From: Parazoarcus communis SWub3 = DSM 12120
GTDB taxonomy: Bacteria; Pseudomonadota; Gammaproteobacteria; Burkholderiales; Rhodocyclaceae
Assembly: GCF_003226565.1 (NCBI RefSeq)
Contig: NZ_QKOE01000007.1
Span: forward strand, 62,001-126,000
DNA length: 64,000 nt
Direction of reading: 5' to 3'
In this document: in pieces, positions 30,907-31,132 of the stretch
How the letters are laid out: each line of letters begins with the position of its first letter
Position numbering within the stretch: the stretch's first letter is position 1
Position numbers and translations under genes: made by a program
The notes under the pieces: generated by a model
The model's database searches: none
What the model was told of the DNA's origin: nothing
Seen by the model: only the letters and a program-made list of their open reading frames with translations

Positions 30907-30923
30907 AAGCAGATCGTGTGCCA
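30907..30923 (-). promoter_or_regulatory. sigma-54 (-24/-12) promoter of the usp-like/CoA-transferase operon
   Basis: On the minus strand the sequence reads TGGCAC-ACGAT-CTGCT. The GG and GC dinucleotides are exactly 10 bases apart, matching the sigma-54 consensus TGGCAC-N5-TTGCW at all but one position. It lies about 50 bp upstream of the GTG start and downstream of a gene for a sigma-54 activator. Confidence 0.85.
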
Positions 30924-30987
30924 GTCGGATAAGTTATTGATATTTATATATAGATTGTTTCTATTGGGTGCCGAGAGGTGGTAAGGT

Positions 30988-31132
30988 GTCTCGATTTTGA
31001 GACTTGATTGCCTGCGTAGCCCCGAGTTTATTCAGGTCTAGTTGGGGGTGTTTTTTAATTGATTGATTTTTTTTGATAAAAATATAATTGATTAACTGTC
31101 TCAGTATTGAGATTGTGTCTCGGAATTGAGAT
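30988..31132 (-). promoter_or_regulatory. three palindromic upstream activator sites (GTCTC-N6-GAGAY)
   Basis: Three near-identical 16-bp sites occur: GTCTCGATTTTGAGAC (30988-31003), GTCTCAGTATTGAGAT (31098-31113) and GTCTCGGAATTGAGAT (31117-31132). The last two are 19 bp apart centre to centre, and the third lies inside the 3' end of the activator gene. They sit 65-210 bp upstream of the -24 element. The repeat, palindromy and distance fit enhancer sites for the adjacent Fis-type activator. Confidence 0.8.
31056..31068 (-). promoter_or_regulatory. IHF-like site between enhancers and sigma-54 promoter
   Basis: TAATTGATTGATT on the plus strand matches the complement of the IHF consensus WATCAANNNNTTR at every fixed position. 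It stands between the distal activator sites and the promoter, the usual place for a DNA bend. The region is AT-rich, so chance matches are possible. Confidence 0.5.

Follow-up and report, generated by a model that had tools for sequence, protein, structure and literature searches.

HbcR and Related Sigma-54-Dependent Systems

The closest known system is that of HbcR (PA2005), which is described, in the available parts of the respective papers, as a PAS-containing regulator of (R)-3-hydroxybutyrate (3-HB) catabolism (PMC8694187) that is activated by (R)-3-HB (PMC10482368) and acts with sigma-54 (PMC8657755). Four Pseudomonas loci compared here (L046-L049) contain an activator gene, two palindromes, and genes for a GntP-type permease, a 3-hydroxybutyrate dehydrogenase and an acetoacetate-CoA ligase; the dehydrogenase of L046, the locus tested for this, scores above the TIGR01963 cut-off. 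As far as the available text of the source goes, genes of these loci fit hbdH (PP_3073) and aacS (PP_3071) of P. putida (PMC13390443). The Pseudomonas loci of the clade are taken as HbcR (PA2005) loci on the basis of their gene order.

The locus analyzed here, from Parazoarcus communis SWub3 = DSM 12120, resembles this system in several respects. Its activator has the same build of PAS, sigma-54 AAA+ and Fis-type HTH domains, falls into one clade with the Pseudomonas loci (which represent PA2005 by gene order) to the exclusion of sister activators, shares its palindrome with these loci, and adjoins its putative target genes. The difference lies in the neighbors, which are a small protein, a CoA transferase and a phasin, whereas those of HbcR are the GntP permease and 3-HB dehydrogenase, neither of which stands beside the present locus. 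Because the clade contains the Pseudomonas HbcR loci, the principle of control is a known one, here with a variant set of genes. A first-pass annotation of this DNA had recognized no named system, which was wrong for the regulator, given that its activator shares one clade with Pseudomonas loci of HbcR gene order.

A broader parallel is offered by sigma-54 systems of the NtrC/NifA type, which operate with IHF looping. They share with this locus the -24/-12 element, upstream palindromes, an IHF-like site and an AAA+ activator. In contrast, the input domain here is PAS, instead of a receiver or GAF domain, and the regulator gene immediately precedes the operon and carries enhancers within its 3' end.

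The available text of the literature on HbcR/PA2005, sigma-54 and PHB, as reached by a full-text topic search and not by motif letters, does not name the palindrome. Likewise, the available parts of the BerB paper, a Bordetella sRNA paper and a PHA regulation review contain nothing on the locus. What may be new is the gene set, as well as the half-site of the sister activators discussed below; the regulator belongs to a known family.

Gene Order and Gene Products at the Locus

The window, i.e., the whole stretch of DNA that was analyzed, comprises 64,000 nt (GCF_003226565.1, NZ_QKOE01000007.1, positions 62,001-126,000), and coordinates refer to this window. On its minus strand, the order of genes is activator (32540-31101), small protein (30855-30358), CoA transferase (30318-28276) and phasin (28023-27520). 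The activator, a protein of 479 aa assigned to the HbcR clade by the tree, matches Pfam PAS_4, Sigma54_activat and HTH_8, and a GAYTGA loop and the Walker A and Walker B motifs can be read in its sequence.

The first gene past the promoter encodes a protein of 165 aa that is at best a remote Usp relative. The name Usp-like, given to it previously, is weak: where the PF00582 gathering score is 24 bits, the protein itself reaches 13.4 and the best of four scanned relatives 18.1, and the Usp label was rejected at this cut-off. For DUF7931, the score is 15.5 bits (cut-off 27). Relatives of this protein are found at 4 of 40 fetched family loci and, among 150 order genomes, in its own genome only.

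The next product, of 680 aa, is a family I CoA transferase. It carries the Pfam CoA_trans domain and aligns to YdiF (2ahu, E 9.8e-135) over residues 28-546, with Glu355 opposite YdiF Glu333, the catalytic Glu. While this alignment, together with a FadX model match below cut-off, likens the enzyme to short-chain acyl CoA transferases of the YdiF/FadX type, it differs from them by 134 extra C-terminal residues beyond YdiF (28276-28680, minus strand), for which no Pfam match was obtained. The phasin (167 aa; Phasin_2, TIGR01841), a protein type associated with granules of storage polymer, follows 252 bp after the CoA transferase on the same strand.

Palindromes, Promoter and IHF Matches

Between the activator and the small gene, in the reading direction, lie two distal palindromes (GTCTCGGAATTGAGAT, 31132-31117, and GTCTCAGTATTGAGAT, 31113-31098), a full match to the IHF consensus (31068-31056, minus strand), the proximal palindrome (GTCTCGATTTTGAGAC, 31003-30988), a further full IHF match (TATCAATAACTTA, 30942-30930, minus strand) and a -24/-12 sigma-54 promoter match (TGGCACACGATCTGCT, 30923-30908, minus strand). 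The three GTCTC-N6-GAGAY palindromes reported in the first-pass annotation are exact, and the -24/-12 element with its GG-N10-GC spacing was found as claimed. The IHF match placed between the distal sites and the promoter is also present, lying more precisely between the distal and proximal palindromes, and the match at 30930-30942 adds to it. One palindrome had been assigned to the 3' end of the activator gene; the one at 31117-31132 does lie within the frame, but two sites touch this end, as the other distal palindrome spans the stop codon (31101-31103). Relatives likewise have sites near the activator stop.

The palindrome centers are located 73.5, 183.5 and 202.5 bp from the GG of the -24 box. 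The proximal palindrome forms an exact composite with the promoter, and the IHF match at 30930-30942 starts 19 bp before the -24 box, an offset conserved among relatives. The features by which a sigma-54-dependent promoter was recognized are both found, namely GG-N10-GC in a TGGCAC context and an rpoN gene (Sigma54_DBD) in the same genome.

Taken singly, these elements are close to chance level. Although TGGCACACGATCTGCT is the sole exact match to TGGCACNNNNNYTGCW within the window, matches with one mismatch number 4 against 6.5 expected, showing no excess over chance. Palindromes with one mismatch give 15 strand matches in the window against 8.9 expected, and 9 of 100 shuffles reach 15. Because this count is near chance, lone palindromes carry little weight, whereas clustering does carry weight. 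The organism's own 5.0 Mb genome contains 14 distinct palindrome places, three of them within 145 bp at the locus. The other 11 (10 within coding frames called by a simple script, one between frames) all lack a -24/-12 element with up to one mismatch within 350 bp, and at this stringency the genome shows no wider regulon. A palindrome combined with a promoter 53-83 bp away is seen once in the window, where 0.01 matches are expected, and once in the genome. A fourth exact palindrome, GTCTC-N6-GAGAT at 8788-8803, is situated, without a promoter match, inside a frame that by eye resembles a GntR-type regulator, and is probably a chance occurrence.

The Activator Clade and Conservation of the Control Region

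Relatives of the activator were sampled at several levels. A search of 199 family genomes gave 42 at E ≤1e-100, five genus genomes gave one at the same threshold (the window's own), and 300 order genomes gave 16 at E ≤1e-150, own genome included; from a search of named genome contigs, the best 80 loci were retained. The analysis covered 70 loci, i.e., the window, 40 of 45 other family match places, 14 new order loci and the first 15 of the best 80, with five further loci out of these 80 serving as the tree outgroup. L145, L148 and L154, having no readable helix, were dropped, leaving 67 loci, of which 35 belong to the window-type clade and 32 are sister loci. The loci are related and some are near copies, and the counts below are of rows, not events. 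The division into two types by recognition helix was set post hoc, but a single branch of the tree also separates the first type from the rest, as a 35-row activator clade with support of 100/97, with the Pseudomonas loci within and the sister activators outside.

All 5-bp inverted words with spacers of 0-12 were scanned from -60 to +420 around the activator stop in the 35 clade loci. GTCTC-N6-GAGAC was by far the commonest, occurring at 19 of 35 loci, compared with at most 4 for any other word at any spacer and a mean of 0.025 of 35 for the exact palindrome in mononucleotide shuffles. With up to one mismatch, the palindrome is found near the stop at 23 loci (shuffles 0.5). Of the 12 others, 8 carry it, at the same tolerance, in the 900 bp that precede the activator (shuffles 0.31 of 12). 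In the stretches tested of L135, L136, L187 and L188 (for L136, 444 bp upstream only), no palindrome was detected. The first-pass annotation had set orthologous loci without palindromes as the observation that would speak against it, and the outcome was favorable, as a site with up to one mismatch is present, near the stop or upstream, at 31 of 35 clade loci.

A -24/-12 element with up to two mismatches accompanies the palindrome at 21 of the 23 loci; at L126 and L141, the palindrome is present and the promoter match absent. The proximal center lies 70.5-75.5 bp from the GG in 12 of these 21, near 62, 83 and 93 bp in two each, and at 132-164 bp in three. Helical phasing was considered and rejected, as the Rayleigh test fails to single out 10.5 bp (R 0.53, against 0.71 at 10.0 and 0.67 at 11.5). 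Because this test gives no 10.5-bp peak and the rows are related, conservation is claimed for spacing and not for phasing.

An IHF-like 13-mer with up to two mismatches starts 18-21 bp before the -24 TGG in 17 of 21 clade promoters, an offset range chosen post hoc, whereas other offsets give 0-4 of 21. Sister-type promoters have it at the same offset in 7 of 16 cases, versus 0-3 elsewhere. The full IHF consensus occurs anywhere in the region at 6 of the 19 exact-palindrome loci (shuffles 0.26). Because its promoter offset recurs among relatives, the most important IHF-like site is probably that at 30930-30942, rather than that at 31056-31068.

As a sequence feature, judged from these comparisons, the control region is real, well conserved and of a known kind. 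Because its parts recur in the same layout across many related bacteria, the switch is very probably real. The core of the earlier interpretation, in which an operon is accompanied by a sigma-54 activator, enhancers belonging to this activator and IHF, is strongly supported by conservation, while the parts concerning naming and Usp did not hold.

Occurrence in the Genus, Family and Order

None of the four other genus genomes contains the activator at E ≤1e-100. One of them, G180, has the CoA transferase (86% identical) and keeps clpB, CoA transferase, phasin, moaE and moeA in the same order, with the activator, small gene, exact palindromes and -24/-12 element jointly missing (the best GG-N10-GC has 3 mismatches). 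The interval between clpB and the CoA transferase in this genome (L167:8725-8949) retains a 2-mismatch palindrome, which is within chance by our own estimate. In L125 and L126, which belong to another genus and hold the closest activator relatives, the activator, small gene, CoA transferase and phasin lie in this order between clpB and moaE. Because these loci keep the same order, loss of the block in G180 would be the simpler reading. The suggestion that the pieces may move as a unit finds backing in this presence and absence only, the activator, small gene, palindromes and promoter being gone together, but clpB, the CoA transferase and the phasin stay in place.

A search for the composite of palindrome and promoter in 199 family genomes produced 12 matches, and the reversed control none. 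Nine are at the activator locus by coordinates, and that of G196 was counted as the tenth by its arrangement, which is as at the activator locus of relatives: it precedes a reductase-like gene beside clpB, where the contig ends. The composites of G116 and G013 are away from any activator locus, the latter inside a predicted coding frame. Among 60 order genomes, the sole match besides the own one is in G222. These three genomes lack a close activator orthologue, their best matches being 46% over 307 residues (G116), 45% over 313 (G013) and 37% over 436 (G222), and their composites reflect either chance or a pattern common to another activator. In G116, the composite (L212:4247-4343) is upstream of a 504-residue frame. 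In G222 (L219:5349-5525), two GTCTC palindromes are accompanied by a -24/-12 match and an IHF-like stretch, and a clear target gene was not found there. In five named genomes, a slightly looser composite gave two matches, both at the Pseudomonas activator locus, and none in the other three.

Neighboring Genes and Sister Activators

Among the 35 clade loci, a CoA transferase like that of the window occurs at 17, a GntP permease at 17 and an SDR at 13, while 6 loci (L130, L131, L138, L140, L141 and L142) have both CoA transferase and permease. Ten of the 13 SDRs are 51-100% identical to the Pseudomonas dehydrogenase and three are 38% identical. Three SDRs from Rhodocyclaceae loci were tested, of which those of L130 and L144 exceed the acetoacetyl-CoA reductase cut-off and that of L133 scores best as FabG. 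A 3-HB/PHB theme is likely for the clade loci, as suggested by these neighbors. The 32 sister loci include 7 with the CoA transferase, 6 with the permease and one with an SDR; because CoA transferase and GntP permease also adjoin some sister activators, gene content alone is no marker of the clade.

The sister activators are distinguished by their DNA sites. The exact GTCTC palindrome is present at none of the 32 sister loci, whereas GTCYG-N6-CRGAC, a form defined post hoc from the earlier scan results, occurs at 11 of 32 sister and 0 of 35 clade loci (shuffles about 0.1). The residue following LY in the helix is K or R in all 19 GTCTC rows and E or Q in all 11 GTCYG rows; in 37 of 67 rows, both exact sites are absent. 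Because it follows a single split in the tree, this correlation counts as one event, not many, and it makes the recognition-helix residue a candidate cause of half-site choice. The GTCYG loci (L143, L152, L155, L158, L159, L160, L161, L163, L164, L184 and L185) have a similar layout around the activator stop, and several of their activators adjoin branched-chain-type ABC transporter genes.

A tentative extension, for which the probability falls somewhat short of even, would be that DNA specificity switched once only (K/R for GTCTC, E/Q for GTCYG) and that the lineage of the window plugged an HbcR switch to a CoA-transferase/phasin set, not to 3-hydroxybutyrate oxidation.

Proposed Mechanism and Alternative Explanations

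The locus is quite likely an HbcR-type control module, in which activator, palindromes, IHF and sigma-54 promoter drive the small gene and the CoA transferase, and perhaps the phasin. The PAS domain would sense a small metabolite, for which (R)-3-hydroxybutyrate or a closely related short-chain compound is the most likely candidate. The activator would then bind, in dimeric form, the GTCTC-N6-GAGAC palindromes, those in the 3' end of its gene as well as the one some 73 bp ahead of the -24 box, and IHF would bend the DNA beside the promoter. By remodeling sigma-54 polymerase at -24/-12, the activator may allow transcription of the small gene and CoA transferase, perhaps of the phasin too. The CoA transferase would turn an acid into its CoA ester, which could enter central metabolism or polyhydroxybutyrate.

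The same module might respond to another short-chain acid (acetate, propionate, butyrate or acetoacetate) instead of 3-hydroxybutyrate, a variant that departs from the main view in the ligand only and has a substantial, if not quite even, chance of being correct. It agrees with the YdiF-like nature of the CoA transferase and with the missing GntP permease, which adjoins the activator at 17 of 35 clade loci and was not found beside the window locus. Moreover, because the own genome has no 3-hydroxybutyrate dehydrogenase above the curated cut-off (best 230 against 307 bits) and the PAS identity of the window activator to the P. putida protein is 55%, the ligand may differ. Against this stand the six clade loci that have both CoA transferase and permease, as well as the SDRs of L130 and L144, two of three tested from CoA-transferase loci, that exceed the acetoacetyl-CoA reductase cut-off; both gene sets are therefore tied to C4 hydroxy/keto acids.

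The palindromes might instead serve mainly for autoregulation of the activator, from its own 3' end or from upstream, with another regulator driving the operon promoter. Two palindromes do overlap the 3' end of the gene, and eight clade loci have their sites upstream of the activator, but at 18 of 21 loci the proximal site precedes the GG of the -24/-12 element by 61-95 bp, and composites are found ahead of catabolic genes at the locus, so that this explanation is improbable. That AT-rich intergenic DNA merely produced fortuitous palindromes and a promoter-like match accords with the near-chance frequency of single elements in the window. Such an origin has a negligible probability and was rejected in view of the composite (0.01 expected in the window) and of the recurrence of the exact palindrome at 19 of 35 loci against a shuffle mean of 0.025.

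Implications

The HbcR-type control module proposed here would provide a definition of such control at the level of sequence, comprising enhancer, spacing, IHF-like site and promoter, with which targets can be sought throughout Beta- and Gammaproteobacteria. It would also bring a CoA transferase, perhaps along with a phasin, under HbcR-type control. Additionally, the two half-site types may represent a natural specificity pair for testing how Fis-type helices pick half-sites. If the single switch in specificity is true, the control region would amount to an enhancer cassette of the plug-and-play kind, whose protein-DNA code can be tested.
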